A stretch of 20,789 bases of DNA from Chloroflexota bacterium (GTDB lineage Bacteria > Chloroflexota > UBA6077). This document shows positions 2,021 to 18,753 of this stretch, piece after piece. The stretch is from positions 1-20,789 of the forward strand of contig JAJZQR010000075.1 of NCBI GenBank assembly GCA_021806765.1. Reading direction: 5' to 3'. The position numbers and the translations under genes are program-made. The notes beneath the pieces are model-generated. The model was not told the DNA's origin and did no database searches. It saw only the letters and a program-made list of their open reading frames with translations. The stretch's first letter is position 1. Each line of letters opens with the position of its first letter.

Positions 2021-2043
2021 AGTGTTTTTTCCTCCAGTAAGTG

Positions 2044-2101: not shown

Positions 2102-2105
2102 CCGT

Positions 2106-4289
2106 TTAGAAGATGGGATCCATGGTCAGGGCCGGGTGGCCCTTCTCCTCCAGGAAGGGCAACAACTCCTCTACCGTCGTCGCTACCCGCTCGTCGGCGA
2201 TCTTCTCCAGCATGTCCGGCTCGCCGATCCGATTGCACACCTCCTGAAGTTCCTCTTGCATCGACTCCTTGATGTTCGAGGACATCCAGACTATCCGCTT
2301 GAAGCCGCCCTCGGCCTGGATGAACTTATTGCTGGTCAGGAAGTACTTGCCGATCCCCATGAGACCCGGGGTCTGGATCCCGCCGCCGGCAGTGCCGGCC
2401 AGGGTACTGAAGGTCATCCCTGCGGGCGTCATGCTGGGATCCTCTCGGGACACCACCATCACTCCGTTCGCCTCGGGTATCACCATCATGATGCTCTCGA
2501 AGCAGCCGCACGAGGTCATGGAGGCATCCATAAAGGAGTACATGGTCACTCGTGGAACCGTCTGGTTGGATTTCTGGTAAACGAAGTCGTTGATGGCGTC
2601 CCACTCCCCCTTGACGGGGTCCAGGCAGTTCCCCTTTTGTACAGGCTGGTTGGGACCGGCCGGGTTGATCTCGAAGCCAGCCTTGGAGTCCAGCCAGTTC
2701 ACCGCGCCGCAAAGGCCGAGCCGCTCCGGGGAGACGATGCAGACGTGGTTCGGAGCGAAGCTCTGGCACAGGGTGCAGCTGTAGAAAAGGTCTACCGACT
2801 CGTCGGTCAGGTTCGCCACGCGGATGTTCCGCTCGTGGTAAGTCTGGCGGGCCACCACCAGCAATTCCTCGACCTTATCCGCCGTCGTGTAGAGATCCAC
2901 GGAGATTTTGTCCACGATAGCCGGGAAATCACTCTTCAGCTTGGCATACAGGATGTCGCCAAGGTGCCGGATCTTGAAGCCCTTCCCAGCGGCAGCAGCG
3001 CTTATGCGGATCCAGGCGATGTCCCGCTGTCCGATGTGCTGGACTCCTTCGGCGCCGTTAACGAAGTCGTGGATCTTCCGCTCCAGCACCGGCTCGAAGT
3101 CCTTCTGCATCTTCCGACCGGCCACGTTCACCATGATCCCCAGGGGCAACGACCCGCCTTCTGGCACCTCGTCGATCTCCGGCCCATGCACGGTGATCTT
3201 GCCGTCTTCCACCTCGCTCATGTCCCGCATGCGGAGGTACTCGAAGCAGGGGCCACGGCGACCGCCGAACTCGATCCGGAGGTTATCCTTCCGCACCCGC
3301 TCCCCCTCGAAGGCGGGACCATAGGCTACTGGTATCGGGATCTTCGTGATGAGGATCTTCAGGCCACGGACCTCGATCGCCTTGGCGACGATCTCCTCAC
3401 ACGCGACGTCGCTCACCACGTGCTCGTAAGTGGTGACACCCCTCGGCAGGATCTGCGGGATGTTGGTGTGGGCGATAGTGGGGAACCCGTAACTGATGGC
3501 TCCCGCGGCCGTCGCGTACTTCTCTCGATCCACCTGGTCCAGAGCCAGGACGAAGGCGAAGATGCGGTACTTGTTGTAGCGCAGCATCTTCTTATAGTCG
3601 CCGGGGGCAACGCCGCCGAAGGAGAGAGCCGCCCGGGTCGCGAAGCCCAGGGAGTAGATGTGGGCCGATACCTCCCGTCCGAAGGGGACGAGACGCGTCT
3701 CCCATCCCAGCTGCACCCGCTCTTCGTCCAGCTGGTCCGCGAAGGTTCGGCCGTTTTGGTCGCTGCCGGCGATGAAGACGTACAGGTTCTTCTCCTGCAT
3801 CTCTCGGGCAAGCCTGACGGCCATCTCGTTGGAGGGAGCCGGGCCGACCACGGCGGCGAAGCCGGGGGCTGTGCCGTCCACGAACTCCACACCCCTCTGC
3901 CGCAGGATCACGTCGTCAGCCGCGCCCAGGTAGATCCCGTCCACCGGATTCGGGCCGATGACGTACTTGAGGGCCTCGATGGTCTCCTCGGCGAAGAGGG
4001 TAGCTACACCGGCATCCAGGGTCTCCCCCAGATAGGGGAGCCACAGCCGTTCCGTGGGCACGGCAGGCAACAATTCCTTCGCCTGCTCGATCACCGGCTC
4101 CAGATCTGACAGCTTGGCCACCTTGCGGCCGGTGAACCCGTAGATGACCGGCAGAAAGTAGCCGGTATTGGGCAGAACTACCGGCTCGTTAGGCCCCTTG
4201 GCGTCGATGGCCTCGTGCAGCTTGGCTTCAGCCCTGGCGACGAAGGCGTGGGCTCCCTCTATGGCAGCGGTAGCAATGATCTTAGACAC
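2106..4289 (-). CDS. acsB: Acetyl-CoA synthase catalytic subunit AcsB (bacterial type)
   Basis: AcsB condenses CO (tunnelled from AcsA), the methyl group from the corrinoid protein and CoA into acetyl-CoA at the nickel-containing A-cluster. Counting from the GTG at 4289, all A-cluster cysteines are present: C505, C508, C517, C527, C594 and C596, in the contexts SCTLCQSFAPNHVC and TSCGCF. The spacing equals that known for the Moorella thermoacetica enzyme. The 727-residue length means the N-terminal CODH-docking domain is kept, as in bacteria and unlike the shorter archaeal beta subunit. An ATG at 4307 is in frame, but the GTG at 4289 has GGAGG 7 nt upstream and gives the N-terminus MSKIIATAAIEGAH. 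The GTG lies within the last codons of acsA, so translation is probably coupled. Confidence 0.97.
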   Translation of the reverse strand: MSKIIATAAIEGAHAFVARAEAKLHEAIDAKGPNEPVVLPNTGYFLPVIYGFTGRKVAKLSDLEPVIEQAKELLPAVPTERLWLPYLGETLDAGVATLFAEETIEALKYVIGPNPVDGIYLGAADDVILRQRGVEFVDGTAPGFAAVVGPAPSNEMAVRLAREMQEKNLYVFIAGSDQNGRTFADQLDEERVQLGWETRLVPFGREVSAHIYSLGFATRAALSFGGVAPGDYKKMLRYNKYRIFAFVLALDQVDREKYATAAGAISYGFPTIAHTNIPQILPRGVTTYEHVVSDVACEEIVAKAIEVRGLKILITKIPIPVAYGPAFEGERVRKDNLRIEFGGRRGPCFEYLRMRDMSEVEDGKITVHGPEIDEVPEGGSLPLGIMVNVAGRKMQKDFEPVLERKIHDFVNGAEGVQHIGQRDIAWIRISAAAAGKGFKIRHLGDILYAKLKSDFPAIVDKISVDLYTTADKVEELLVVARQTYHERNIRVANLTDESVDLFYSCTLCQSFAPNHVCIVSPERLGLCGAVNWLDSKAGFEINPAGPNQPVQKGNCLDPVKGEWDAINDFVYQKSNQTVPRVTMYSFMDASMTSCGCFESIMMVIPEANGVMVVSREDPSMTPAGMTFSTLAGTAGGGIQTPGLMGIGKYFLTSNKFIQAEGGFKRIVWMSSNIKESMQEELQEVCNRIGEPDMLEKIADERVATTVEELLPFLEEKGHPALTMDPIF

Positions 4290-6258
4290 GGAGCTCCCTC
4301 CTTGCATCCATGTCGAAGAGGACGCGCTCTTGCTTGGTGTCGATACCTAGCGCCTTCCTCTTCTTCTGGATGTGGTCCACGGCCTTCTCGTAGATCTTTG
4401 CCGGATCGATCTCGAACTCCATCTTGCCGCCGAACTTCTCTTCCCAACCGGTTGACATCAGGTCTACGACGGCCTTGCTCGCCTTGATCGGCGAGGTTAC
4501 GCCGAAGAGAACGTAAGCACCGCTGGCGGCAAAGTAGGTACCGATAGCCAGAGCCTTCTCGCTCATCCACTCGGGGGCGATACCGACGGCCGGCAGTTCG
4601 CTGATGTCGTCACCCAGGCCGCCCTCCGCCACCACAGCCGATAGGATGGTGAGGATGCGGCTGTTATCCACGCAGGATCCCAGGTGCAGCACCGGCGGCA
4701 TGCCGGTAGCCTCGCAGATGGACCGGAGACCGGGTCCCGCGTACTCCATCGCCTCGCCCGTCAGCAGTCCGTACTTGGCGCTGGCCAGCGACCCGCAACC
4801 CGTTTGCACCACCAGATAGTCGTTGGCGATGAACTCCCTGACCAGGTTGAAGTGAGCCTCGTCGTGAACGACCCGAGGGTTGTTGCAGCCCACTATGCCG
4901 ACCGCGCCCTGGATCCGACCGTCGATGATGGCATCGTTGAGCGGCCGGAAGGAGGCCCTGTAGCGGCCTCCCAGCATGTACTCCACGTACTCGTGGGAGA
5001 AGCCGGCCACCAGGTCGGAGGCGTAGTTGGGGATGTGAACACGCTTCGCGCGGTTCGGGTAGTTGTCTATCGCGGTCCGTATTATCAGCTTGGCGATGGC
5101 CAGCGCATCGTGCTCGTTGAACTGGATGTGGGTGGCACCTTGGATCCTCGCCTTGGGCGAGGTGGTGATCAACTTGGTGTGGAAACGCTCGGACAGAGGC
5201 ACCAGGGCCTGCATGACACACTGGATATCCACCACCATAGCGTCGACCACGCCGGTCAGTATGGCCAGCTCCTGATCCAGGAAGTTGCCCGCGGGTGGAA
5301 TGCCGTGCCGCATCAACACTTCGTTGGCGGTGCAGCAGATGCCCGACAGGTTGATCCCCGTCGCCCCCTTGGACTTGGCGTAGGCAATCAACTCGGGATC
5401 CATGGCTGCCACCACTATCATCTCGGATAGGGTGGGCTCGTGGCCGTGGACGACGACGTTGACCTGGTCTTCTTTCAAGACGCCGAGGTTGGCTTGACTC
5501 CGGATAGGTTCGGGGGTCCCGAAGAGGATGTCGGAGATATCGGTGGCCAGCATGCTGCCGCCCCATCCGTCCCCCAGGGCTGTCCGCACGGTCTGCATCA
5601 GGATGTGATCGGCGTCCTGATCTGCCCCCATGTGAGTGGCGTGCATGCTCTGGACGATCTCTCGATCTATGCCCCGAGGCACCACCCCCAACCGGCGCCA
5701 CAACTCCTGGCGCTTCTTGGGGGCCCGAGAGGCATATATGATCTCGCCCGTCTGCTGACCGAAGTTGGACAGGGCGCGATTCGCCACGTCGAGAGCTATC
5801 TCCGAGGTGCTGCGACCGTCGACCGGTATCCCCATCAGTTCCGCGACGGCCTTCAGTTTGGGCACGTCCTTCATCTGGTAGTCGGGGGCTTCGCCCTTAG
5901 CCGCCGCCATGAGGGCCATGGCCAGGTCGCGGCCATGGTCGGAGTGCGCTGCGCTCCCAGCTGCCACGGCTCGGGAAAGGTTCCTGGCCACGATGGTCGG
6001 GAGGGTCGCACCGCAGACCCCTGTCATGACGTCGGGATTCTTGCCTACCAGACGGCACGGCCCCATATAACAGACCCGGCAACAGGCGCCGTCTTGTCCG
6101 ATGGGGCACGGCTTCATCTCCCCCGCACGACTGAAGGCGGTGGAGATCTCCTCCACATCGGCTATCTCCAGCATCTCAGCTGCGGCGGGGTCGATAGTCT
6201 TGCCGTTCCCTTTGCCCAGCCATTGGGGCGGGGGAATGCTTCTGCCTAGATCACCCAT
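4282..6258 (-). CDS. acsA: Carbon monoxide dehydrogenase catalytic subunit AcsA (CODH/ACS type)
   Basis: This nickel-iron CO dehydrogenase reduces CO2 to CO for AcsB, and can run in reverse. Counting from the ATG at 6258, C51 and C59 match the D-cluster, C60, C63, C68 and C82 the B-cluster, and H273, C309, C347, C458, C488 and C529 the NiFeS C-cluster. All expected ligands are therefore present. It has 658 residues, close to the roughly 670 of the Moorella protein. The interval between the last two C-cluster cysteines is 41 residues, shorter than the 50 in characterised enzymes. The ATG at 6258 has AAGGAG 6 nt upstream; a TTG five codons earlier is less likely. It is the first gene of the operon and its 3' end overlaps the start of acsB. 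Confidence 0.97.
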   Translation of the reverse strand: MGDLGRSIPPPQWLGKGNGKTIDPAAAEMLEIADVEEISTAFSRAGEMKPCPIGQDGACCRVCYMGPCRLVGKNPDVMTGVCGATLPTIVARNLSRAVAAGSAAHSDHGRDLAMALMAAAKGEAPDYQMKDVPKLKAVAELMGIPVDGRSTSEIALDVANRALSNFGQQTGEIIYASRAPKKRQELWRRLGVVPRGIDREIVQSMHATHMGADQDADHILMQTVRTALGDGWGGSMLATDISDILFGTPEPIRSQANLGVLKEDQVNVVVHGHEPTLSEMIVVAAMDPELIAYAKSKGATGINLSGICCTANEVLMRHGIPPAGNFLDQELAILTGVVDAMVVDIQCVMQALVPLSERFHTKLITTSPKARIQGATHIQFNEHDALAIAKLIIRTAIDNYPNRAKRVHIPNYASDLVAGFSHEYVEYMLGGRYRASFRPLNDAIIDGRIQGAVGIVGCNNPRVVHDEAHFNLVREFIANDYLVVQTGCGSLASAKYGLLTGEAMEYAGPGLRSICEATGMPPVLHLGSCVDNSRILTILSAVVAEGGLGDDISELPAVGIAPEWMSEKALAIGTYFAASGAYVLFGVTSPIKASKAVVDLMSTGWEEKFGGKMEFEIDPAKIYEKAVDHIQKKRKALGIDTKQERVLFDMDARRELRV

Positions 6259-6622
6259 AATCGTCTCCTTCAACTAACTGCCCGCCCGCCGGCCAAAGGC
6301 ACGATTCGGCACGTTTGCGGGTCCTGGAGGAAAACGTCGGAAAACGATGGCCATGAGACCCGAGAGGTCCCCAATAATCGTCTCCATTGACGGCATGGGG
6401 TAATCTGGATAGCCTGTCCAGCTCAGCTTCTCTTGTCCTACTGCCCCTCGCCTGCTACCCCCCATTGGATAGCCGAGGAAGCTGCTTTGCTCCTCACCTC
6501 CCTTGGTAACAGACCCAGCGTGGTCGCCCGCCAGGGCATAGCCATCGCCCCGACATCAGACAACGGTCAAGCTGCTGCTGGCACATAAGGCTAGTGCGGT
6601 AACCGGTAAGCTGGGGTTAGAT
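6259..6622 (-). promoter_or_regulatory. Long structured 5' leader of the acs operon
   Basis: About 364 nt separate the predicted transcription start (near 6622) from the acsA ATG. Read on the minus strand, the leader has two copies of GGCTATCCA (6474-6466 and 6414-6406). The second forms a CTGGA/TCCAG hairpin (6421-6405). CGGC plus ATGGGG (6475-6472, 6465-6460) can pair with CCCCATGCCG (6400-6391), and GGGGTA can pair alternatively with TACCCC in the same region. A GAGGA/TCCTC hairpin lies further upstream. I could not match it to a known riboswitch consensus; in particular no cobalamin box is evident. A 63-codon ORF (6465-6274) in the acsA frame ends 15 nt before acsA and has no clear ribosome site. 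Confidence 0.5.
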
Positions 6623-6628
6623 AGGTTC

Positions 6629-6656
6629 AGTATAAGCTTGACGCTTTCCTTGTCAA
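6629..6656 (-). promoter_or_regulatory. Sigma-70-type promoter of the acs operon with overlapping dyads
   Basis: On the minus strand TTGACA (6656-6651) is followed after 16 bp by TATACT (6634-6629), a near-consensus housekeeping promoter pointing at acsA. The dyad CTTGAC-N9-GTCAAG (6637-6657) covers the -35 box and spacer. A second dyad CAAGGTC-N12-GACCTTG (6654-6679) starts in the -35 box and extends upstream. These are plausible operator sites for a dimeric regulator; which one is unknown. Confidence 0.65.
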
Positions 6657-6663
6657 GGTCGCA

Positions 6664-6692
6664 TTGTTTGACGACCTTGCAGGTGTTATCAT
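6664..6692 (+). promoter_or_regulatory. Possible extended -10 promoter of the HisKA-only gene
   Basis: TTGTTT (6664-6669) is followed after 17 bp by TATCAT (6687-6692), with TG one base before the -10, an extended -10 pattern. It points to the membrane HisKA gene and is back to back with the acs promoter, sharing the dyad region between them. The -35 box is weak. Confidence 0.3.
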
Positions 6693-6822
6693 CCTCGATA
6701 GGTCGGGGTCCGAACGAGCAGGACAGCTTCGCTTCACCCCGCAGAACATCCAAGATCGCAACCGCTTCCTCGGCAAGGCAGCGAGGGGTTCAGCGGTCAC
6801 TGCTGTCGTACCGGAGGATCGA

Positions 6823-7320
6823 ATGTCCTTTTCAGTTCGCCTCTGGACAATGACCATCGCCAGCTTCTCCGTCTTCACGGCCTGGGTCTTCGTCCACGAC
6901 CACATAATGCCCGGCCTGAGCGCCGACGCCTACCATGCTATCGTATCAGCCTCGGCCTGGGCCTTCGGCTTGCTGGGAACTTTCCTGATCAACCGATTCC
7001 ATCGGCGCGCCGAGCGGTTGGCCGAGCAGGCGGCCAGGGACGACACCGTCATCCAACTGGCCGGCGGCATCGCTCACGAACTGAACCAACCCCTGACCAT
7101 CATCATCAGCACCGCAGAACTCCTGGCCAGGCGCGACCCGGCGAAAGACGACTTGCGCCCCTACCTACACCAACTGATCCAGGCCTCTGAGCGGGTGTCG
7201 GACACCGTACAGAAACTGGAGAAGGCCACCAGCTATCGTACAAAACCCTACGTGGCCGGCGTAGAGATCGTGGACCTCGACCAGGCCAGTGAAGAGCAAT
7301 CAGTAATGAGTAATGAGTAA
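6823..7320 (+). CDS. Small membrane protein with a HisKA dimerisation/phosphoacceptor domain but no ATPase domain
   Basis: This 165-residue protein has two hydrophobic segments (about residues 8-29 and 36-57). A HisKA-like helix pair follows, with the H-box GGIAHELNQPLTIII and the candidate phospho-acceptor H85. A second helix at about 110-140 precedes a short tail (VEIVDLDQAS). There is no HATPase_c domain (no N, G1, F or G2 boxes), so it cannot autophosphorylate alone. It could accept phosphate from another kinase, dimerise with one, or be a truncated relic. The ATG at 6823 has GGAGG 5 nt upstream; the open frame back to 6664 is unlikely to be translated. The stop lies inside a TAATGAG heptamer repeat. 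Its position between the acs promoter and RACo suggests, without proof, a link to acs regulation. Confidence 0.75.
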   Translation: MSFSVRLWTMTIASFSVFTAWVFVHDHIMPGLSADAYHAIVSASAWAFGLLGTFLINRFHRRAERLAEQAARDDTVIQLAGGIAHELNQPLTIIISTAELLARRDPAKDDLRPYLHQLIQASERVSDTVQKLEKATSYRTKPYVAGVEIVDLDQASEEQSVMSNE

Positions 7321-7397
7321 TGAGTAATGAGTGGCAGTCCTCGACTCATCACTCATCACTCATCACTTCTCACTCGTCACTTCTCACTCATCACTTC
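7299..7397. repeat. Heptanucleotide repeat dyad at the convergent gene ends
   Basis: Tandem TAATGAG heptamers (about 7303-7331) are followed, after about 11 nt, by ACTCATC heptamers and degenerate variants (7342-7397). The two arrays form an imperfect inverted repeat with one mismatch per heptamer, so either transcript could fold into a long hairpin. The HisKA gene takes its TAA and the RACo gene its TGA from the repeats. The pattern resembles the short tandem heptamer repeats known from cyanobacteria. It probably serves as a bidirectional end structure. Confidence 0.75.
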
Positions 7398-9297
7398 TAG
7401 CTGCGGATTGGCTCAGTAGCCTCTCCACCGACGGGAAGGCAGCGAGATTGGTGTGGGGAAGGAAGAGCCCCGAGATGTACTCCTCCATGAAGCGGTTGTC
7501 GGCGGATAACTCCAGGTAGGTCATCTTGCGGGCCCCCTCTTCCGCTACCTCCCGCGCCTCCCGAGAAACCAGGGAGGCATAGGCCCCCAGGGCCGAGGTG
7601 TTGCCCAGGTAGTGGAAGGTCTCCCACGGAAGGTCGGGCAGCAGACCGATTTGGATCGCCTTCTCCACGTTGATGTAGCGGCCGAAACCTCCACCGATCA
7701 GCACCTGCTCGATATCACCGAAGCTCAACCCAACGCTGTTCACCAGTACGGAGAAACCGGCGTAGATGGCAGCCTTGGTCCTGAGCAGGTTGTTGACGTC
7801 TACTTCGGTGATGACTATGTCCTCGCCCTGCCCCGTCTCGCCAGCCCACGCAACCACATACTCGCCGCCATGGTCGCCCCGCCGTATCCTCGGGGTCCCG
7901 AGGTTCCAGTTCATCCGGCCACCGCGGTCGATCACCCCGGCCAGGAACATCTCAGCCAGCAGGTCGATCATGGCAGAACCGCAAATCCCTTTGGGGGGCA
8001 CGTCCCCAATCACATGGAACCGGGGCTCCAGGTCGGTGCGACCGATCTCTACCTTCTCGATGGCCCCAACGGTAGCTCTCATGCCGTGCTGCACCCCCGC
8101 GCCCTCGAAGGCCGGCCCAGCGGAACAGGCGCAGGTCATTAGCCACTCGGAGTTCCCCAGCACTATCTCGCCGTTGGTGCCCACGTCGATGAACATCGTG
8201 AGCTTGTCGGTCTTCCACAGACCGGAACTGAGCACTCCAGCCGTGATATCTCCGCCCACATAGCTGGCGACGCCGGGGATGGCCAGCACCAAAGCGTTCG
8301 GGTTTACGCCGATGCCCAGATCCCGCGCCGGTATCGGAGGGTACTGATTGACCGCCGGAATGTAGGGTTGCTCCCGGAGATATCGAGGGCTGATCCCCAG
8401 GAAGAGATGGCTCATGGTGGGATTTCCAGCAGCCACGACCTGGAGCACCTCCTCCGGCCGCACGTCTGCCTTCTTCAGCACCTCGGCCAACAGTCCATTG
8501 ATGGTGTCCACAACCATCTGCTGGAGTTCCTTCAGGTTGTCGCCCTTGAGGGAGTAGACGATCCTCGAGATCACATCCTCGCCCCGGGCGATCTGTCCGT
8601 TGTAGGCAGACGCCACCTGCAGCAGCTTCGCCGTGCGCAGGTCCACCAGGTATACGACCACCGTGGTGGTGCCGATGTCCACGGCCACCGCAAACATACG
8701 ATCGGTCTTGTCCCCGGGAACGATGGAGATCAACCGCCGCTCATCCACCGAGGAAACGTTATCGTAGAAAACGGTGACCTGCCAGTCGGCGGCCCGAAGT
8801 AGATCGGGGAGAGACCGAAGGGCGGAGAGGTCTACGGAAAGGCTGTTCAGACCCATCCGCGCCATCTGCCGGCGAAGGCGGCTGTAATCGTCGGTATTGT
8901 CTTCCAAACTGGGTGGCTCGATAGTGAGCGCGACGGCTCCCACCGCGGGATCAATGCGCCCCTGCCATGCCGCCGGGAGAGCTACACGGTCCGCCCGCGA
9001 CTCCCCCACGGGAACCTCGCGTCCCTGCTGGGGTGGCACCAGGACCGAGACGTCTCCACGCACCACGCTCTGGCAGGCGAGGACCCATCCCTCCTGAGCC
9101 ATAGCAGGTTTGACCAGCGCCGTGGGAGGAGAGTCTACCTGGCCGAGGGCAACCTGCACCTTGCAGCGTCCGCACCTCCCCTGGCCACCGCAGGGGACCC
9201 CAATCTCGATGCCCGCAGCCTTCGCGGCATCGAGGAGACTGGCACCGGATGGAACCTCTACAGCCTTCTCTTGAGGAAGGAATCTTACAAGCGGAAT
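7384..9297 (-). CDS. acsV: Reductive activator of corrinoid iron-sulfur protein (RACo), ferredoxin-ASKHA ATPase fusion
   Basis: RACo uses ATP to push an electron onto Co(II) corrinoid that has dropped out of the methyl-transfer cycle. The N-terminus is a plant-type [2Fe-2S] ferredoxin domain with C36, C42, C45 and C75 (context PCGGQGRCGRCK and LACQS). The remainder is a DUF4445/ASKHA ATPase with VDIGTTTVVV near residues 206-215, a second phosphate motif FIDVGTNGEIV, and GGGFGRYINVEKA near the C-terminus. Total length is 637, usual for RACo. No ATG, GTG or TTG allows the whole ferredoxin domain. The frame opens after a TAA, and AAAGGAG lies 6 nt before an ATT at 9297 that gives the family-like start (M)PLVRFLPQEKAVEVPSG. 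The first later GTG (9159) would delete three iron ligands. Context favours the acs reactivase over a demethylase activator. Confidence 0.9.
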   Translation of the reverse strand: MPLVRFLPQEKAVEVPSGASLLDAAKAAGIEIGVPCGGQGRCGRCKVQVALGQVDSPPTALVKPAMAQEGWVLACQSVVRGDVSVLVPPQQGREVPVGESRADRVALPAAWQGRIDPAVGAVALTIEPPSLEDNTDDYSRLRRQMARMGLNSLSVDLSALRSLPDLLRAADWQVTVFYDNVSSVDERRLISIVPGDKTDRMFAVAVDIGTTTVVVYLVDLRTAKLLQVASAYNGQIARGEDVISRIVYSLKGDNLKELQQMVVDTINGLLAEVLKKADVRPEEVLQVVAAGNPTMSHLFLGISPRYLREQPYIPAVNQYPPIPARDLGIGVNPNALVLAIPGVASYVGGDITAGVLSSGLWKTDKLTMFIDVGTNGEIVLGNSEWLMTCACSAGPAFEGAGVQHGMRATVGAIEKVEIGRTDLEPRFHVIGDVPPKGICGSAMIDLLAEMFLAGVIDRGGRMNWNLGTPRIRRGDHGGEYVVAWAGETGQGEDIVITEVDVNNLLRTKAAIYAGFSVLVNSVGLSFGDIEQVLIGGGFGRYINVEKAIQIGLLPDLPWETFHYLGNTSALGAYASLVSREAREVAEEGARKMTYLELSADNRFMEEYISGLFLPHTNLAAFPSVERLLSQSAARSDE

Positions 9298-9573: not shown

Positions 9574-12500
9574 ATGGATTACCCCGCCTTCCTCACCAAG
9601 GCCAGGCTCCCTCAGCGGCGCCCGGATGTCCTGCGCCGTCCCAGGTTGGTGGACTTTCTCCACCAACAGGTGGACAAACGGCTGATCATCCTGTCGGCTT
9701 CGGCGGGATACGGCAAGACCACCCTCCTGGTGGACTTTGCCCACGAGGTGGACCTCCCCGTCTGCTGGTATTCCCTGGACGCCTCGGATGCCGATCCGAG
9801 GACCTTCTTCGAGTACCTCCTTCTGTCCCTGCGCCAGCGGTTTCCCAGCTTCGGCCGGCAAACCGAATCCCTGCTCCAGTCAGTGGAAGACGTCGGCAGG
9901 GAAGTCAACTCCCTGGTCGCGTCCCTGGTCAACGAGATCCAGTCGGACATCCCCGACTACTTCCTGCTGATACTGGACGACTTTCACTGGGCAGACGGCA
10001 GTGAGGTGGTCAACGCCGCCCTGGATCTGCTGATCTACTACCTGCCCGACAATTGCCACCTGCTGCTCTCGACCCGCACCCTGCCTCAGCTAACCTTCTC
10101 GCGATTGGCGGCCCAACGTCAGGTAGTCGGACTGGGGACCACCGACCTTCGATTCACGCCTGACGAGTTGAGCCGGTTGCTGCGTGAGAACTTCAAGCTG
10201 GCGATGCCGGCCAATCAGGCTGAAGAGTTGATCGAGGCCTCGGAGGGTTGGATCACCGGCATCCTTCTCACCACTCACACCCTTTGGATGGGGTTGGTGG
10301 AGAATCTCCTCAAGGCCAAGGGGGCTGGTAGTCCTCTCTTCGACTACCTGGCCAACGAAGCCTACCTCCTGCAGCAACCAGAGGTTCAGCAGTTCCTGTT
10401 GTGCTCCTCCGTGCTGAACCAGATGACACCGGAGCTGTGCGACCGGCTCTTCGCCAGGGGAACGGCTGCGGACATGCTTCACTACCTGTTGAGGGCCAAC
10501 CTCTTCGTGATGGGACTGGACGGCCCAGGCGAGTGGTACCGTTACCACAACCTGTTCCAGGAGTTCCTCCAGGCGAAGCTAAAGGCCGAGAACCCGGCGA
10601 TGTTCTCCGAACTTCACAGCCGAGCAGGCCAGATGGCTGAGGCACAGCGGGAATGGGATACAGCCTTCGGCCACTACATGGCCGCCGGCGATCACGAGGG
10701 AGCAGTCGCCCTGGCAGAGTTGGTGGGCGAAGAGATGATGCGATCCGGCCGCTGGCGCACCCTTCAGCGCTGGTTGGAAAGCCTTCCGCAGGGGATTGTC
10801 GACACACGACCGAGGCTGTCTCTTTTGAGAGGGCGCACCTCCATCTGGTCAGGCGAATTGGATCGAGCGATCACCTATCTGGACAGGGCATCACAACGGT
10901 ATCGCCTGGACGATGACCATGAGGGTGCAGGGGGAGCGCTCACCGTCAAGAGCATGGCCCTGAGGCTGAAGGGACGCCTGACCGAGGCCCTCGAAGCTTG
11001 CTCTGAGGCCCTGGCACTGCAGGGTGATCATACGTCACAGGTGGCAGCCGAGGCCCACCGCGACAGAGGGATCTGTCTGGCGTCTCAGGGCAAACTCGCT
11101 GAAGGCGCAGCCGAACTCCAGCAGGCTTTGGCCATGTATGAGGCCCTGGGAGACGATGACGGTGTTGCCACTCTGTCCCAATCCATGGGGATACTCTCCG
11201 TACGAACCGGAGACCTGGCTCGAGGCATGGTTTACTACCAGCGGGCTCTCACGCTCTGGCGCCGGTCGGGCAACTCGGCTCTGGAGTCAGGCGTCCTCAA
11301 CTCCATTGGGGTAGTGCACCATTACTCCGGGGAGTATCCACTCGCATTGACCATTCTTAGGGAGGCGACGGAGAAGGCACGGCTCGCCGGGCACCTGCGA
11401 AGCGAAGCCTTCGTGCTCGCAACCACCGGTGACGTGCAGCGGGATTCGGGCGATCTTCGAGCGGCCCTGGACACCCACGAAACGGCGCTGGAACTGGCAC
11501 ACCGAGTCGACGAGGTCCCTCTCATCAACTACCTCCTGGATGCTCTAGCCAATACGCATCGACTATTGGGAGACTACGCAACGGCAGAGCGCTTACTGCG
11601 CCAAGCGCTCCAACAAGCCGAGGATGTCCAGTCCTCCTATGAAGTGGCGACATACTCGGTATCGGCAGGGCTGCTGGCTGAAGAGCAGGGTGATCTCGGT
11701 CGAGCCGAGGCGCTGCTAAGGTCTGCTCTTCAGCAGCTGGCACCATCCGGGGCAAGGCGGGATGAAGCACGCGCCCGTTATCACCTGGCCAGAACTCTTT
11801 TCACAGCGGGCAAGCGGGATGAGACCGCAAGAGAACTCGATGCTTGTCTGGAATTGTGCCGCGAGCTGGGCTACGACGCCTTCATGGTGGCCGAGGGACA
11901 GAAAGCCAACCAGTTGATCACCTGGGCACTCTCGGCAGGTATGGGCGGCAGGCGCCTGGAGCTTGTGGCCGAGCGGCTGCAGGTGAGCCGGCAGCCGCTC
12001 CAGGTACTCCAACGCCAGAACATTCGGCTCGAGCCATCGGCTCCGCAGAGCATAGAAATTGAGTCTTTCGGCGTAGCCAAGGTTCTCGTGGACTCCAGAC
12101 TCGTCACCAGCAGCGATTGGGCAGTGGAGAAGACCAAGGAGCTGTTCTTCTATTTGCTGCGCCAACCTCATGCCCTCCGGAAGGAGCAAATCGTAGATGA
12201 CGTCTGGCCGGAAGTGGAGTTGAGCAAGAGCAACAGCCAATTCCACTCTACCATGTACCGGCTGCGAAGAGCGCTCTTCCCGCAGTGTGTGACTTACAGG
12301 GACGGTAGATATCAACTCACTCTCGGGAAGAGCTACCGCTACGATGCTGAGGCGTTCGTGCGACTACTGACCGAGGCAGAGACAGTAGACCTACCCCTCT
12401 CCCGCAGAATCGAGGCATACGAACAGGCTCTGGCACTGCACAAGGGACCCTATCTCGATGAGTTCTACTCGGACTGGGTGCTAGCACCGCGCGAGGATCT

Positions 12501-12810
12501 CGAGATGCGCTACCTGCAAGGTCTTACTCGGCTAGGAGGGCTCAGGGCACAGAGCGGCGCCCTGGAACAGGCGGTAGAGCTGCTGCGTACGGCAGTCGCA
12601 AAGGACCCCTTCCAGGAGGAGGCTCACTACGGGCTCATTCACTATGCGGCTTTGATGGGGGATAGGGCAGCAGCTCTACGCCACTACAGAAGTTATGTTG
12701 AGTTACTCCGCGACGAACTGAGCGCCAAGCCAAGCTCGTCGATCCTCGACTTGGCCGATCGTATAGCTCACGGCCAACCACTCCCATCGATTCACGGGTC
12801 CACCAGGTAA
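9574..12810 (+). CDS. Large AfsR/MalT-like transcriptional regulator: STAND NTPase, TPR array, SARP-type winged helix and BTAD
   Basis: This 1078-residue cytoplasmic regulator starts with a STAND-type NTPase: Walker A GYGKTT at 45-50 and Walker B LLILDDFHW around 131-139, resembling MalT. A long middle region of tetratricopeptide-like helical pairs (about 370-800) is the likely ligand or partner sensor. Residues about 827-920 form an OmpR/SARP-type winged helix (IEIESFGVAKVLVDSR and YRLRRALFPQCVTYRDGRYQ). Residues about 925-1070 are a BTAD helical domain (YLDEFYSDWVLAPREDLEMR). ATG at 9574 is chosen; an in-frame TTG at 9562 is possible and neither has a strong ribosome site. Such proteins usually activate neighbouring genes, and the peptide, DUF5317 and NHLP genes follow on the same strand. 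The class is clear; ligand and regulon are unknown. Confidence 0.9.
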   Translation: MDYPAFLTKARLPQRRPDVLRRPRLVDFLHQQVDKRLIILSASAGYGKTTLLVDFAHEVDLPVCWYSLDASDADPRTFFEYLLLSLRQRFPSFGRQTESLLQSVEDVGREVNSLVASLVNEIQSDIPDYFLLILDDFHWADGSEVVNAALDLLIYYLPDNCHLLLSTRTLPQLTFSRLAAQRQVVGLGTTDLRFTPDELSRLLRENFKLAMPANQAEELIEASEGWITGILLTTHTLWMGLVENLLKAKGAGSPLFDYLANEAYLLQQPEVQQFLLCSSVLNQMTPELCDRLFARGTAADMLHYLLRANLFVMGLDGPGEWYRYHNLFQEFLQAKLKAENPAMFSELHSRAGQMAEAQREWDTAFGHYMAAGDHEGAVALAELVGEEMMRSGRWRTLQRWLESLPQGIVDTRPRLSLLRGRTSIWSGELDRAITYLDRASQRYRLDDDHEGAGGALTVKSMALRLKGRLTEALEACSEALALQGDHTSQVAAEAHRDRGICLASQGKLAEGAAELQQALAMYEALGDDDGVATLSQSMGILSVRTGDLARGMVYYQRALTLWRRSGNSALESGVLNSIGVVHHYSGEYPLALTILREATEKARLAGHLRSEAFVLATTGDVQRDSGDLRAALDTHETALELAHRVDEVPLINYLLDALANTHRLLGDYATAERLLRQALQQAEDVQSSYEVATYSVSAGLLAEEQGDLGRAEALLRSALQQLAPSGARRDEARARYHLARTLFTAGKRDETARELDACLELCRELGYDAFMVAEGQKANQLITWALSAGMGGRRLELVAERLQVSRQPLQVLQRQNIRLEPSAPQSIEIESFGVAKVLVDSRLVTSSDWAVEKTKELFFYLLRQPHALRKEQIVDDVWPEVELSKSNSQFHSTMYRLRRALFPQCVTYRDGRYQLTLGKSYRYDAEAFVRLLTEAETVDLPLSRRIEAYEQALALHKGPYLDEFYSDWVLAPREDLEMRYLQGLTRLGGLRAQSGALEQAVELLRTAVAKDPFQEEAHYGLIHYAALMGDRAAALRHYRSYVELLRDELSAKPSSSILDLADRIAHGQPLPSIHGSTR

Positions 12811-12847
12811 TCTGGCGAATCTTGCCGGATTGCCCCGTTTACCCCTG

Positions 12848-12881
12848 GTTTTGCGAGCGTTTTGCGAGAATCGGGTAGTAG
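12848..12881 (+). promoter_or_regulatory. SARP-type tandem direct repeat and promoter before the peptide operon
   Basis: GTTTTGCGAG occurs at 12848-12857 and again at 12859-12868, exactly 11 bp apart. A -10-like TAGTAG follows 7 nt later (12876-12881) and there is no good -35 box. SARP activators are known to bind heptamer direct repeats spaced by one helical turn, the last about 8 bp before the -10. The site begins 37 nt after the stop of the SARP-like regulator and precedes the 34-aa peptide gene. Confidence 0.55.
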
Positions 12882-12898
12882 AGTTCCCCAACAGACGG

Positions 12899-12921
12899 GG
12901 CCCCTAGATCCATCGGGGGCC
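12899..12921 (+). repeat. Hairpin upstream of the small peptide gene
   Basis: GGCCCC (12899-12904) can pair with GGGGCC (12916-12921) across an 11-nt loop. It lies in the predicted 5' leader just before the ribosome binding site and may tune expression. No T-tract follows. Confidence 0.4.
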
Positions 12922-12949
12922 AGCACAGAGATGAAGGAGAGTTGGGGAA

Positions 12950-13054
12950 ATGAAGACTGCGCGTTATCTGTACGTCAAGGTCATCTACGTTGCTCTCGCA
13001 ATTGCCGCTCTGGCTATGGCCGCTGGCGCCCCTGATGGCTGGCCTGCCCCGTAG
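12950..13054 (+). CDS. 34-residue peptide with an export-type hydrophobic segment
   Basis: This short ORF has ATG at 12950, with GAAGGAGA about 10 nt upstream. The product has a basic N-terminus (MKTARYLYVK), a hydrophobic core at residues 11-25 (VIYVALAIAALAMAA) and a polar proline-rich end (GAPDGWPAP). An A-x-A pattern at residues 22-24 could allow signal-peptidase cleavage, leaving a 10-residue exported peptide; otherwise it is a tiny single-pass membrane protein. It is the first gene after the SARP-type repeat and is followed by DUF5317 and the NHLP-like gene. I recognise no named family. A role as a signal peptide or small membrane regulator is inference from size, leader-like sequence and a TPR regulator next door. 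Confidence 0.6.
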   Translation: MKTARYLYVKVIYVALAIAALAMAAGAPDGWPAP

Positions 13055-13061
13055 GGATCAG

Positions 13062-13079
13062 TTGGGGCCCTCGCCCCAA
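13062..13079 (+). repeat. Hairpin between the peptide gene and the DUF5317 gene
   Basis: TTGGGG and CCCCAA form a perfect 6-bp stem with a 6-nt loop, 8 nt after the peptide stop codon. With no T-tract it is more likely a processing, stabilising or attenuating element than a full terminator. Confidence 0.45.
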
Positions 13080-13167
13080 AGGTCTTCTGGTTGTGGGTCC
13101 GGCAGGACGGCAGGCGCCATGAGCTTCTGTCATGTCCTCAGACTCCAACTTAGAGGAAGGTTCACAA

Positions 13168-13764
13168 TTGATCCTGGTAGTAGCGCTCATCGTAGGCATC
13201 GGTATCGCCCTGCTAAGGAAGGGCAGGTTGCAGCGACTGGCTGATCTGCCCTTCCGCCTCGGCTGGCTGGCTCTACTGAGCATAGCCGCCCAGGTGTACG
13301 TGATCTACAGCCCTGCAAGCAGGCTGGAACTGGATCGACCCATTCACGCCGCCATAATGATGGGGTCGTACCTCGCCTTGGGTGTCGTTGTGTGGGTCAA
13401 CCGGCGCATCGTAGGGATGCCCATCATCGGTCTCGGTCTATTGTTGAACCTCGCAGTCATGGCCAGCAATGGGGGTTTCATGCCCATTTCGCGGGAGGCA
13501 ATCCTCGCTGCGGGTACGCATCCAGCAAATGAACTGCTGGTAGATGGATCGAGACTCGACAGATCCAAAGATGTGTTGCTTCCAGCCGACCAGACAAGGT
13601 TGTGGATCCTCTCCGACGTGATTGTAGCGTCAAAGATGCCGCTGGCGAGGGTGTACAGCTTGGGTGACCTGATCGTCGCTGTGGGCGCGTTTCTGCTCCT
13701 CCAGGCTGCCATGGTGCCCGGCAGGGAGACGCGTTCTATCGAGCGGGAGGCTCGCACTGGCTGA
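13168..13764 (+). CDS. DUF5317 family membrane protein
   Basis: This 198-residue integral membrane protein begins at TTG 13168, which has AGAGGAAGG about 7 nt upstream and gives the family-like start MILVVALIVGIGIALLRKGR. The ATG at 13132 would add 12 polar residues before the first membrane helix and has no good ribosome site. Hydrophobic helices are visible at about 1-17, 32-48, 60-75, 85-102 and near the C-terminus (170-185). The conserved-looking stretch SNGGFMPIS follows the fourth helix, and VYSLGDLIVAVGAF precedes the end, both as in DUF5317 proteins. Biochemical function is unknown. It sits between the small peptide and the NHLP-like gene, so it may belong to the same regulatory or signalling unit. 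Confidence 0.8.
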   Translation: MILVVALIVGIGIALLRKGRLQRLADLPFRLGWLALLSIAAQVYVIYSPASRLELDRPIHAAIMMGSYLALGVVVWVNRRIVGMPIIGLGLLLNLAVMASNGGFMPISREAILAAGTHPANELLVDGSRLDRSKDVLLPADQTRLWILSDVIVASKMPLARVYSLGDLIVAVGAFLLLQAAMVPGRETRSIEREARTG

Positions 13765-13806
13765 ACGATCCCAGCAATCCCGAACGTTCACTCTACTGGA
13801 GGAACG

Positions 13807-14079
13807 ATGCCGTCACACAAGGAGTTGGAGAGGCTAATTGGGGCCGCTATCGTCGACAGCGAGTTCCGAGCGAGCCTCCTTGAGTCGCCGGCTGCCGCCG
13901 CTTCAGGCTTTAACCTGTCGGCAGAGGAACTAGATGCGTTGAGTTCCGCCGATACCAGTTCCCTGGAGGAACTGGCGACTTTCCTCTATGCCTGGATCAC
14001 CAAGGCTCCCAAACCCAGGCGTGCATCCTTCGGCCGATGGTCGTTGGACGGGTATCAGGCAGTCCGCATCGCGGTGTAG
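13807..14079 (+). CDS. Os1348/NHLP-clan small protein (RiPP-precursor-like)
   Basis: This 90-residue protein has an N-terminal helical domain like the nitrile-hydratase-leader-peptide (NHLP) clan: KELERLIGAAIVDSEFRASL, then PAAAASGFNLSAEELDALSS. The family pattern is residues that start a helix, a 'dpeaaa..G..Ls.eEl..l' core and an LEELA helix. The tail (about 64-90) is basic and aromatic (KPRRASFGRWSLDGYQAVR). NHLP domains act as leader regions of ribosomal peptide precursors, but no cyclodehydratase, lanthipeptide synthase or peptidase-transporter is seen here, so a maturation partner is missing or distant. The tail has no Cys and few Ser, unlike typical cores. ATG has GGAGG 4 nt upstream, 42 nt after DUF5317, so they are probably co-transcribed. 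Confidence 0.7.
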   Translation: MPSHKELERLIGAAIVDSEFRASLLESPAAAASGFNLSAEELDALSSADTSSLEELATFLYAWITKAPKPRRASFGRWSLDGYQAVRIAV

Positions 14080-14143: not shown

Positions 14144-14193
14144 TCAGGGGTCAGTGTTCAACCTCCTGCCCTCGGTTGAACACTGACCCCTGA
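14144..14193. terminator. Perfect 19-bp inverted repeat between convergent genes
   Basis: TCAGGGGTCAGTGTTCAAC (14144-14162) is exactly complementary to GTTGAACACTGACCCCTGA (14175-14193), with a 12-nt loop. It lies between the NHLP-like gene (+) and rpsU (-) and probably ends both transcripts, although neither side has a T-run. The TCAGGGGTCAG motif looks like a dispersed repeat family. Confidence 0.65.
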
Positions 14194-14224: not shown

Positions 14225-14449
14225 CTACCGACCCCGGGCGCCGCTCCTGTGCCTGCGCTCCGCGGCCTTCTGCCTCCGCCGCTTCAGTTTCCTCGCTGCC
14301 TCTTTCTCCTTCATGCGGCGCTGCTCCGAAGGGCCGACGTAGAAGCGATGCTTCTTCAGCTCCCTCATGATTCCGGACCGCACCATCCCTCGCTTGAAAC
14401 GAGACAGCAGCTCCTCTATCGACTCGCCGTCGCGCGCAACTACCTGCAT
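14225..14449 (-). CDS. rpsU: 30S ribosomal protein bS21
   Basis: This is a 74-residue basic protein of the small ribosomal subunit, near the anti-Shine-Dalgarno region. It is recognised by the N-terminal pattern VVARDGESIEELLSRFKRG, the central MRELKKHRFYVGPSEQRR and an Arg/Lys-rich C-terminal tail, slightly longer than common bS21. The ATG shares one base with the TAA of the upstream zinc-ribbon gene (TAATG), and no separate strong ribosome site is visible, so translation is likely coupled by re-initiation. In the genome context it ends against the convergent dyad at 14144-14193. Confidence 0.9.
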   Translation of the reverse strand: MQVVARDGESIEELLSRFKRGMVRSGIMRELKKHRFYVGPSEQRRMKEKEAARKLKRRRQKAAERRHRSGARGR

Positions 14450-14784
14450 TATCGGCCCCGTCCATAGCCGCTGCTGCGCTCTCTGGCAAAGCAGTCGGAG
14501 CAGTAGACTGGCTTGTCACCACGTGGCTGGAAAGGAACCTCCGTCTCCTTGCCACAGCTGGCGCACACAGCCGGATACATCTGGCGAGGCTCTCGGCTGT
14601 ACCCCGAGCTGTAACCGCCTCGTCCACCACCGTTCCTCTCAGCCCGGCGAGCTGCTCGGCACTCTGGGCACCGCGCTGGGTCGTTGGTGAAACCCTTCTG
14701 AGCAAAGAACTCTTGCTCCTCTACCGTGAAGGCGAACGACCGCCCGCAGTCACGGCACACCAGGGTCCTCTCGGAATAGGGCAT
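14449..14784 (-). CDS. Two-zinc-ribbon protein
   Basis: This 111-residue protein has two separate treble-cysteine pairs. C10, C13, C39 and C42 form the first ribbon (TLVCRDCGRSFAFT to PARCPECRA). C74, C77, C95 and C98 form the second (VCASCGKETEVPF to VYCSDCF). A Gly/Arg/Tyr-rich linker (about 50-68) and an RSSGYGRGR tail resemble RNA-binding RGG segments. The first half matches the probable zinc-ribbon family (zinc-binding, FFAQKGF motif) and the second half the CxxC-x-CxxC type family. ATG at 14784 has AAGGAG 6 nt upstream. Its overlap with rpsU suggests a role in translation or ribosome regulation, which is inference. Confidence 0.85.
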   Translation of the reverse strand: MPYSERTLVCRDCGRSFAFTVEEQEFFAQKGFTNDPARCPECRAARRAERNGGGRGGYSSGYSREPRQMYPAVCASCGKETEVPFQPRGDKPVYCSDCFARERSSGYGRGR

Positions 14785-16953: not shown

Positions 16954-18753
16954 TCACGGGATGATGGGCTTCTTGCTCTGCAGGCCCTGCAGAAGGTCCA
17001 GCTGCCCCTGCAAGCGCCCCGCCACTTCCAGCCGCAGCCCCTGCAGGTCGACTCGCAGGGACTCTACCCGAACCCCGAGCCCCTCACGCACCTCGGCCTG
17101 CAACCCTTCCAGGGGAGACCGCAACCGCTGCCCCAACTCCTGCTGAAGGCTCTCCACCTGGAGCTGCAACCCCTTCAACTCACTCTGCCACCGGCTGCTA
17201 AGTTCGGCCTGCAAACCCCGGACGTCGCCCTGCAGAGCCTCGAACTGACCCTGGACCTCCTCGAGGTGGAGTTGCAGGCGTGCACCCAGCTCGACCTGCA
17301 CCACCTCCACGTCCAGTTGCAGCCGCTCCAGGGTCAACTGGGCCTCTGCCAGCCGCGCCTGGATCCTCTCCCGCAGATCGACCTGCAGGTTGTCCAGGTA
17401 GCTGGCCGGGTCGGTCACCTGCGCCAGCATCGCCTTCGCCCGCTGAAGCCCTCGCCTGGGGATTCGTCCCTGGCGGATCATCTCCTTCATCTGGGAGAAA
17501 CTCATGACTGTCTCGCGGTAGAGGTTGGCCATTTGCTCGTAGAAACGCTCCGGCGGGAGCTTGGTCGGCAGCACACTGTGGAAGAAGTCGAACTTCTCCC
17601 AGCCGCCCTTTATCAGATGTTTCGTTTCCTCGTACAGCTGCGTGCCGGGAAGCGGAGTGAGAATAGTGAACTGAAGAAACTCGATCTTCTTTCGTCTGAC
17701 GTACTCTATCAGCCCTTCGAAATCCCGCTCCTCCCAGTTGGGGTCGATCAGGAAGGCACCCCAGATGTCGATCCCGTTATCGTGCATGATGTCGATGGCT
17801 CGATCGTTGATCGCCAGGGAGGATGACTTGTTGAAGCTGCTGAGATCTTCCTCTCGGTAGGCCTCCAGCCCCATCAGCACCGTGGAGAGTCCGGTTCGCG
17901 CGGCCATGGCGATCCCATTGGGGTCCCTCACCATGGCGTCGGCCCGACCCTGGATCCAGAACTTCTTGTGGATGCCCCTCTCCTCCATCATCCCTACTAT
18001 CCGTCGAGTGCGGGGCATGGAAGCGAGGAAGTTGTCGTCCACAATGCAGAAGTACTCGCAGTCCCCTGGCAAGGCCTCTATCTCTGCGATCACCCGTTCC
18101 GGCGACTTGAAACGGACCTTGCCGCCAAAGAAACGCCATACGGAGCAGAAGTTGCATCGAAATGGGCAACCCCTGGTGGTCTCGATGGTGTAGACATCAT
18201 CCCAAAAACGGAAGAAGTAGCCCTGACGGTACTGGGTTACCAGATCGCGCCGCGGCCATGGAACCTGATCCAGATCCTTCAGGGTTGGACGAGGTGCGGT
18301 CACCCGTAGGTTCCCGTCCTCCCGATAAGCGATGCCCGCCACCTGGGATAGGTCCCCGCCGGACTCCAGGGTGCGCACCAGATGCGGGAAGGTAAGCTCT
18401 CCCTCACCGAACACTATGAAATCCACGTTCGAGCTGTCGAACTCCGAGGGGCTCATGGAGACGTGATGCCCGCCAACCACTACCTTTGTCTCGGGCAGCA
18501 CCCGTCGGGTTGTCCGGCAAATCTCCTGCGCGTGGGGCACCTCGGCGGTGTAACCGGTCGTGCCCACCATGTCCGGTTGGAACTCCTCCAGCACAGCCGC
18601 CAGGTCGGCATCGGCGCGCATATCGAATATCCGCACCTCGTGATCCGGCACTGTTCCGGCTACCGTCTCCAAAGCCAGCGGTTCCGGCCGCGCCAACCTC
18701 TTGAAGCCGATGGCAGTCTTGCTGCTATCAGGCTGGACCAGCAGTATCCGCAT
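16954..18753 (-). CDS. B12-binding radical SAM protein with a long amphipathic-helix C-terminal tail
   Basis: This 599-residue protein has an N-terminal cobalamin-binding Rossmann domain (about 1-135; MRILLVQPD, then VVVGGHHVSMSP) and no DxHxxG motif, so B12 would be bound base-off/His-off. Its radical SAM barrel (about 185-400) has the cluster motif C196-x3-C200-x2-C203 (TTRGCPFRCNFCSVW). The core resembles class B methylases such as the hopanoid C-3 methylase HpnR (SVWRFFGGKVRFKSPERV, VDDNFL), so a lipid or natural-product methylation is plausible but unproven. Residues about 445-595 are an unusual tail of Leu/Gln/Glu-rich helices with recurring LQ-x-E/D-L units, like apolipoprotein helices or a coiled coil. 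ATG at 18753 is preceded by AAGGGGGA. Confidence 0.85.
   Translation of the reverse strand: MRILLVQPDSSKTAIGFKRLARPEPLALETVAGTVPDHEVRIFDMRADADLAAVLEEFQPDMVGTTGYTAEVPHAQEICRTTRRVLPETKVVVGGHHVSMSPSEFDSSNVDFIVFGEGELTFPHLVRTLESGGDLSQVAGIAYREDGNLRVTAPRPTLKDLDQVPWPRRDLVTQYRQGYFFRFWDDVYTIETTRGCPFRCNFCSVWRFFGGKVRFKSPERVIAEIEALPGDCEYFCIVDDNFLASMPRTRRIVGMMEERGIHKKFWIQGRADAMVRDPNGIAMAARTGLSTVLMGLEAYREEDLSSFNKSSSLAINDRAIDIMHDNGIDIWGAFLIDPNWEERDFEGLIEYVRRKKIEFLQFTILTPLPGTQLYEETKHLIKGGWEKFDFFHSVLPTKLPPERFYEQMANLYRETVMSFSQMKEMIRQGRIPRRGLQRAKAMLAQVTDPASYLDNLQVDLRERIQARLAEAQLTLERLQLDVEVVQVELGARLQLHLEEVQGQFEALQGDVRGLQAELSSRWQSELKGLQLQVESLQQELGQRLRSPLEGLQAEVREGLGVRVESLRVDLQGLRLEVAGRLQGQLDLLQGLQSKKPIIP

Follow-up and report, generated by a model that had tools for sequence, protein, structure and literature searches.

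Does a 34-residue open reading frame (ORF) lying between a large regulator gene and a gene for a DUF5317 membrane protein encode a peptide signal, and do these neighbours form one system? The question is raised by a stretch of 20,789 nucleotides from a Chloroflexota bacterium (assembly GCA_021806765.1, contig JAJZQR010000075.1), hereafter the window, in which a sequence-only reading had proposed a peptide-signalling locus of four same-strand genes. All four are present as ORFs with profile matches (the regulator, the small ORF, DUF5317 and a protein of the NHLP clan, Table 1), and the four-gene finding is real and stronger than that reading had stated. We propose, with a probability of roughly 55%, that these genes form a self-regulating peptide-signalling cassette, in which the regulator would drive an operon of the peptide, DUF5317 and the NHLP-clan protein, and the peptide would be an exported signal feeding back.

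As judged by comparison of related sequences, the 34-aa ORF belongs to a conserved, translated gene family under purifying selection. Loci were collected from organism-named genomes (67 loci), from a phylum sample (119 of 400 genomes) and from a class sample (100 of 396 genomes), and were merged into 143 loci with distinct DUF5317 sequences. An iterated peptide profile, seeded with 15 peptides chosen by position, matched 119 of 18,674 small ORFs at E < 1e-3. Searched against all stop-to-stop segments on both strands of the 143 loci (1.55 Mb), it gave 126 matches at E < 0.01. All but one (125) are on the same strand as DUF5317, and 116 have their end in the interval from 1.3 kb ahead of the DUF5317 start to 60 nt past it. 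Because the seeds were picked by position, a scan of whole genomes is the cleaner test. When 400 genomes were scanned with the peptide alignment, matches at E 0.001 or better were found in 35; some of these are the alignment's own source sequences, and the test lies in the absence of strong matches elsewhere. Twenty of the 21 strongest loci (E up to 4e-7) have a BTAD regulator and/or DUF5317 no more than 1.5 kb away, and the exception (L223) adjoins a divergently transcribed STAND gene, with a second peptide copy 3.5 kb away that adjoins DUF5317. The weaker matches are mixed: among L234-L242 a BTAD regulator or DUF5317 was present on the fetched stretch in L237, L238 and L241 only, and several weaker matches fall inside long ORFs.

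The peptides of this family share a basic N-terminus, a hydrophobic core, a near-invariant [AGS]xG directly followed by AP, and a short tail; they are 29-55 aa long with starts chosen by us. The motif could be parsed in 113 of the 116 in-position peptides (L038, which reads GAL, one L093 copy and L209, which reads GAE, were dropped; L192 was kept but is doubtful). Among these 113, the motif reads GAP in 105; a small residue (A, G or S) occupies position -3 in 112, all have G (108) or A (5) at position -1, and the tail is 7-13 residues long in 97. The GxPxGW-type end named by the sequence-only reading is not conserved, the conserved feature being [AGS]xGAP. That reading had also called for a measure of selection, and the ratio of nonsynonymous to synonymous differences (pN/pS) is 0.20 over 19 independent pairs (0.29 over all 124 pairs), which indicates purifying selection; between loci, the GAP codons have a ratio of 0.02, the signal part 0.28 and the tail 0.47. 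A loss of the small ORF at homologous loci or a disruption of its frame would have spoken against the proposal; neither result was obtained in the loci examined. A stop inside the matched stretch was reported in some scan rows (6 in one scan, 2 in another), and in the rows where the same peptide was read, L162, L166 and L327, it simply ended at the stop. Tandem copies occur, five in L050 and three each in L138 and L146, and copies differing by purely synonymous changes were found in L003, L050, L166 and L167. At E 0.1 or better, 581 relatives were found in a protein database, and 'hypothetical protein' is the sole name among the 120 relatives listed. Divergent small peptides ending in GA[DEN]xxW or GASxxxF were seen in L176, L194, L195, L197, L212 and L234-L236, most of them near DUF5317, HD-GYP or kinase genes, and are perhaps a second branch of the family.

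The sequence-only reading expected a small ORF and DUF5317 to recur downstream of regulators of this kind, and comparison of loci indicates that regulator, peptide and DUF5317 do belong together. Among 121 DUF5317 loci with at least 1.5 kb of upstream sequence, 87 carry both a BTAD regulator and the peptide, 6 the regulator only, 3 the peptide only and 25 neither; two of the regulator-only loci (L044, L058) hold another hydrophobic small ORF at the place of the peptide. The gap between regulator and peptide is wide (87-705 nt, median 174 in 91 loci; 139 nt in the window), and the peptide stop lies at a median of 14.5 nt before the DUF5317 domain (98 loci), a spacing that suggests an operon of peptide and DUF5317 behind a separate promoter region. 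Among cultured bacteria, Bellilinea caldifistulae carries the cassette (L023).

DUF5317 itself (PF17248, 107.3 bits against a gathering score of 25) more likely starts at TTG 13168 than at ATG 13132, since most aligned relatives begin at that residue. A structural model (pLDDT 83) has five predicted helices of membrane-spanning length, and the conserved loop NGG-MP...D...SxGD is predicted by the positive-inside rule to lie outside. The conserved aspartates of the protein are D162 and D179, numbered in the ORF from 13132. By eye, its motifs bear a likeness to those of lipoprotein signal peptidase (LspA), with which it may share a fold. Fusions to PAS-GAF-GGDEF (L060 and L026, Acetothermia/Bipolaricaulota records) and to MFS transporters (L194, L195 and L200, phylum-sample genomes) suggest that DUF5317 senses or handles something at the membrane. 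DUF5317 is also carried by two control genomes, Thermotoga maritima and Thermus composti.

The NHLP-clan protein matches NF038399, of a clan of precursors of ribosomally synthesized and post-translationally modified peptides (RiPPs), with 65.1 bits against a cut-off of 40. Judged by position in 90 cassettes, such a protein lies behind DUF5317 in at least 76 and ahead of it in 2, and 12 cassettes were scored as lacking it; the first figure is a lower bound because 4 of the 12 (L004, L047, L138, L156) do show an NHLP match. A group of loci (L143, L149, L150, L151, L154) lacks the NHLP gene, and by eye a stand-alone response-regulator receiver follows DUF5317 in L143, L149, L150 and L154. Further downstream, 45 of 78 proteins were scanned, with HD domains of the HD-GYP kind in 28 and histidine kinases in 9.

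The regulator has the architecture given by the sequence-only reading, as profile and chain matches confirm: a STAND domain, a TPR array and an output of SARP type. Its N-terminus is a MalT-like STAND NTPase (Walker A around G45-K48, DD135-136; match to MalT chain 8bob, E 3.7e-35), followed by TPRs (TPR_12, E 3.1e-25, plus other TPR families). It shares with the MalT family of STAND LuxR-type activators the N-terminal NTPase and TPR region and differs from it in the output, which is a LuxR helix-turn-helix (HTH) in MalT and a winged HTH with BTAD here; its 278 bits are far below the 537-bit cut-off of the MalT equivalog NF003420. The BTAD reaches 70.2 bits (cut-off 22.1) and is immediately preceded by a weak Trans_reg_C match (E 0.032), and the C-terminus contains an OmpR-type winged helix with the recognition helix FHSTMYRLR (residues 890-898). 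The protein is thus a SARP by definition, an OmpR-type DNA-binding domain followed by a BTAD. AfsR chains match the C-terminal piece (residues 28-240, E 6.7e-4 to 1.1e-3) and are outranked by designed TPR proteins, which fit the TPR-like part of the BTAD better. Large SARPs of the AfsR type have an N-terminal SARP part, then NOD and TPR domains, whereas the order here is STAND-TPR-SARP, with the MalT-like part at the N-terminus and the SARP part at the C-terminus.

Table 1. Features of the cassette and its surroundings (positions in the window), and genes behind candidate further operator sites (locus handles, with positions on those loci where available).
Feature	Position	Strand	Basis
Regulator, 1078 aa from ATG 9574, MalT-like STAND-TPR-winged helix-BTAD	9574..12810	+	profile and chain matches, conserved residues
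Candidate SARP-type operator, two 11-bp direct repeats GTTTTGCGAGC / GTTTTGCGAGA	12848..12869	+	9/9 matches at 11-bp spacing
Candidate -10 region TAGTAGAGT, weak match to TATAAT	12876..12884	+	sequence and spacing rule
Putative ribosome-binding site AAGGAG of peptide gene, 10 nt before ATG	12934..12939	+	read from sequence
34-aa 'GAP' peptide, MKTARYLYVKVIYVALAIAALAMAAG followed by APDGWPAP, predicted cut after G26	12950..13054	+	profile, family alignment, selection
Predicted mature tail APDGWPAP	13028..13051	+	-3/-1 residues of relatives
DUF5317 membrane protein, ~198 aa	13168..13764	+	profile, alignment (start TTG 13168), model
Os1348-family NHLP-clan protein, 90 aa, no core peptide apparent	13807..14079	+	profile
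Inverted repeat, perfect 20 bp, 10-nt loop; likely terminator	14144..14193	.	sequence; role from position
Wood-Ljungdahl cluster	1052-9159	-	
Ribosomal protein S21 and double treble-clef zinc protein	14225-14784	-	
B12-binding radical SAM protein	16954-18753	-	
Further site: exported-type proteins of 2241 aa and 2848 aa, Rhs and SpvB domains	L260:4277-10999, L263:3-8546		
Further site: GAF-PAS histidine kinase, then HD-GYP response regulator	L261		
Further site: LuxR-type HTH protein, then M23-golvesin protein	L259		
Further site: LuxR-type HTH protein, then 1875-aa exported-type protein (first 309 aa: no family)	L293:25-5649		
Further site: LuxR-type response regulator	L277		
Further site: 1078-aa exported-type protein with lamin-tail domain	L291:2556-5789		
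Further site: Amidase_6 protein	L280		
Further site: 223-aa protein, no family, before SNF2 helicase	L262		
Further site: 244/251-aa protein, no family, before membrane gene	L270, L274		

The link between regulator and peptide comes from direct repeats ahead of the peptide gene, which the sequence-only reading did not contain. In 89 regulator-peptide intergenic regions, compared with 10 dinucleotide shuffles, repeats are enriched at spacings of 11 bp (z 11) and 12 bp (z 26); spacings of 10 and 22 bp reach a z of about 5, and no other spacing between 8 and 24 bp exceeds about 3. A clear repeat, that is an 11- or 12-bp pair with at least 8 identical positions out of 9, precedes the peptide in 69 of the 89 loci, window included (20 shuffles: mean 3.85, maximum 7). 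Control regions rarely contain one, the counts being 5/74 ahead of the regulator gene, 3/74 within it, 1/89 behind DUF5317 and 12/274 in other intergenic regions. One large clade uses the 12-bp spacing. In 37 of the 69 promoters, the second repeat is followed after 7 or 8 bp by the best -10-like hexamer, as compared with a mean of 6.1 and a maximum of 13 in 200 shuffles of the same stretches. SARP targets are described as direct repeats 11 or 22 bp apart, the 3' repeat lying 8 bp from the -10 (PMC10936776), and the peptide promoters follow this rule, with repeats ending about 8 bp before the -10.

The repeats also vary with the predicted recognition helix. For the 58 regulators whose promoter has a clear repeat, GNNGCC repeats accompany 32 of 37 FKN-type helices (a class that includes one LKK), GTSAGT or GCGAG accompanies 11 of 13 FHS/FRS-type helices (12 counting L136, which the sorting pattern misplaced) and GTAAGCAC accompanies 4 of 5 FHV-type helices, three helices falling outside all classes. 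Since the classes were defined with the data already in view and run along clades, the agreement is supportive rather than a set of many independent tests. The regulator very probably binds the peptide promoter, and the promoter circuit as a whole is well supported by comparison. Of the earlier interpretation, then, the recurrence of the gene set stands strongly, the GxPxGW end does not, and the path from regulator to peptide is now backed by an operator. Tandem peptide-like ORFs with three operator copies, as if there were one promoter per copy, were observed in L093 / L233 (G391:C158).

A few genomes contain the operator at other places as well. With up to 3 mismatches allowed, 10 of 12 cassette genomes contain the 12-bp operator; each of the 10 has it at the cassette, and four have it at extra places, five in total. 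When the limit is 2 mismatches it occurs in 13 of 400 genomes, in 11 of them at the peptide-DUF5317 operon. The backward-read pattern, used as a control, gave 3 matches, all in one genome. Of 12 cassette genomes, 11 contain the 11-bp operator (up to 1 mismatch), each of them at the cassette, and eight further places have it as well, against 2 matches of the backward-read pattern. Two of the 13 further places look like chance (G615:C572, G002:C224). The candidate extra targets (Table 1) are a small, clade-dependent set.

How might such a cassette work? In the scheme that we infer for export, cleavage, ligand identity, direction of control and the roles of DUF5317 and the NHLP protein, the STAND-TPR-SARP regulator would bind the paired direct repeats (11-bp, or 12-bp in another large clade) ahead of the peptide gene and switch on the genes for peptide, DUF5317 and NHLP-clan protein as one operon; in some genomes it would also activate a few more promoters. 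The basic, hydrophobic N-terminus would be the export signal of the peptide, which may then be cut, probably after [AGS]xG, releasing a short tail that begins with AP; what is observed that bears on Sec export is the basic N-terminus, the hydrophobic core and the small -3 residue of nearly all family members. This tail, or the membrane-bound peptide, would report back to the regulator, most simply through the TPR domain and ATP-dependent switching of the STAND part. DUF5317, through its conserved and predicted outer loop, would most likely process or sense the peptide at the membrane, and the NHLP protein is a probable cytoplasmic accessory. The tail as ligand of the regulator is plausible and unproven. 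We hold only tentatively, at somewhat under even odds, the more specific proposal of a secreted AP-peptide pheromone that is matured or read by DUF5317 and sensed by the STAND-TPR-SARP activator, constituting an undescribed class of cell-cell signalling widespread in Chloroflexota that would drive its own operon and, in some genomes, giant exported-type Rhs or lamin-tail proteins.

Several observations weigh against the proposed signalling cassette. Covariation between tail and TPR domain, with the other domains removed, is weak (partial r 0.14, 1/200 permutations), that between tail and DUF5317 loop amounts to 0.015, and the signal part also covaries with the TPR, STAND and BTAD domains and the DUF5317 helices, in a comparison where phylogeny was not controlled. 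No clear repeat precedes the peptide in 20 of the 89 promoters, and the -10 of the window is weak. DUF5317 stands without regulator or peptide in the 25 loci counted above, and the peptide stands without DUF5317 on the fetched stretch in nine loci (L321-L324, L326-L329, L334). In these nine, DUF5317 lies elsewhere in the genome (G450 and G404 rechecked), NHLP is present in seven, and L329 reads SAP, not GAP; such a separation within the genome explains at least one locus with neither gene (L134, from the same genome as L322). Three more peptide loci without DUF5317 on the stretch (L325, L330, L331) end at a contig end. In G228 and G671 a peptide-like ORF beside an NHLP gene has lost the GAP motif, and no DUF5317 was found in either genome, which hints that DUF5317 acts on GAP. 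It is only a hint, since GAP is altered beside DUF5317 too (in L038 and L209); in addition, the G671 peptide is a weak match, and both genomes may be incomplete. G613 has a GAP peptide at a contig end in an assembly without DUF5317, and G007 a divergent GAE peptide, likewise with no DUF5317.

The hydrophobic stretch of the peptide could also be a membrane anchor. In the most serious rival reading, the peptide is an unsecreted microprotein that remains membrane-bound beside DUF5317 and modulates a sensor complex; this complex would act on the regulator or on the HD-GYP or kinase gene often found downstream. The tight spacing of peptide stop and DUF5317 domain, the two DUF5317-GGDEF fusions and the many HD-domain proteins and histidine kinases among the downstream proteins fit this reading. 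We nevertheless regard it as unlikely, given the signal-peptidase-like small residue at -3 in 112 of 113 peptides, the tandem copies with identical product and the nine loci where DUF5317 sits only elsewhere in the genome. That the regulator turns on the peptide as an effector and does not sense it as a ligand has a precedent in the small gene afsS, which AfsR activates through the same kind of operator (PMC10936776, PMC10972967); the secretion-type sequence and the near-invariant GAP make such an output improbable here. Still less credit is due to a toxin-immunity pair, with the peptide as a small hydrophobic bacteriocin or toxin and DUF5317 as its immunity protein: a small hydrophobic peptide does directly precede a polytopic membrane protein, and Rhs/SpvB-domain giants lie behind two extra operator sites, yet DUF5317 occurs without the peptide and fused to GGDEF and MFS domains, and the strong constraint on GAP and the frequent pairing with the regulator argue against it. 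Equally remote is a RiPP cluster with the NHLP-clan protein or the peptide as modified natural-product precursor, for which the Os1348/NHLP profile match speaks, together with the genomic setting of the founder Os1348, in whose cluster neighbouring genes had been predicted to carry out its modification (PMC7726476), since, as the sequence-only reading had said, no known maturation enzyme occurs among the 17 window ORFs scanned (apart from a B12-radical SAM protein 3 kb off on the opposite strand), and the NHLP C-termini are variable, with no border between leader and core apparent by eye.

The proposed peptide-signalling cassette can be set beside two known systems in particular. In RRNPP systems of Bacillota, a small exported-type peptide gene likewise lies beside a TPR regulator, and tandem propeptides are known (PMC11343458). 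Of the five features by which RRNPP systems are recognized, namely a small propeptide, Sec export, a receptor of 250-500 aa, TPRs and adjacent genes (PMC10075063), the window has the small propeptide (34 aa), the TPR-bearing receptor and the adjacency of their genes; counting against the parallel, the regulator at 1078 aa is about twice the size of an RRNPP receptor. The cassette differs further in its STAND and SARP domains, its phylum and its extra DUF5317 and NHLP genes, and TPR binding is putative here. With AfsR/afsS of Streptomyces it shares a STAND, TPR and SARP regulator that controls a small gene, and an operator of two 11-bp direct repeats before the -10 (PMC10936776), whereas here the small target gene encodes an exported-type peptide, and genes for DUF5317 and an NHLP protein come after it. 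The SARP part of AfsR is kept in check by the NOD and TPR domains until ATP binds (PMC10936776), which offers a switch for the regulator here. Os1348 and Frankia_peptide proteins of the NHLP clan share their domain with the window protein, which differs in having no modification enzymes seen in the window and in being a regular partner of DUF5317. As proposed, the cassette would work like an RRNPP loop and like AfsR-afsS, yet is neither. No description of the peptide family, of DUF5317 or of the cassette was found in the literature searched, which misses most subscription journals, and the word DUF5317 is absent from it. Nor was a peptide signal of Chloroflexota described in the literature found, as judged by title and start of abstract.

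The surroundings of the cassette hold further features (Table 1). Upstream of it, in this Chloroflexota-like genome, the Wood-Ljungdahl cluster comprises CdhD, ACS beta, a Prismane-type CODH and an AcsV-like corrinoid activator. Downstream, a gene for ribosomal protein S21 beside a double treble-clef zinc protein is convergent with the cassette, and the inverted repeat between the peptide operon and this S21 operon is a likely terminator, as judged by its position. The B12-binding radical SAM protein, 3 kb from the NHLP gene, has weak C-terminal matches of coiled-coil type.

Chloroflexota are abundant and mostly uncultured. The system described here gives DUF5317, a large set of small ORFs and a set of large regulators one testable hypothesis, for which the promoter is defined and both a candidate ligand and a reporter design are available. 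If true, it would mean peptide quorum sensing that controls surface or competition proteins, outside the phyla where such sensing is known.

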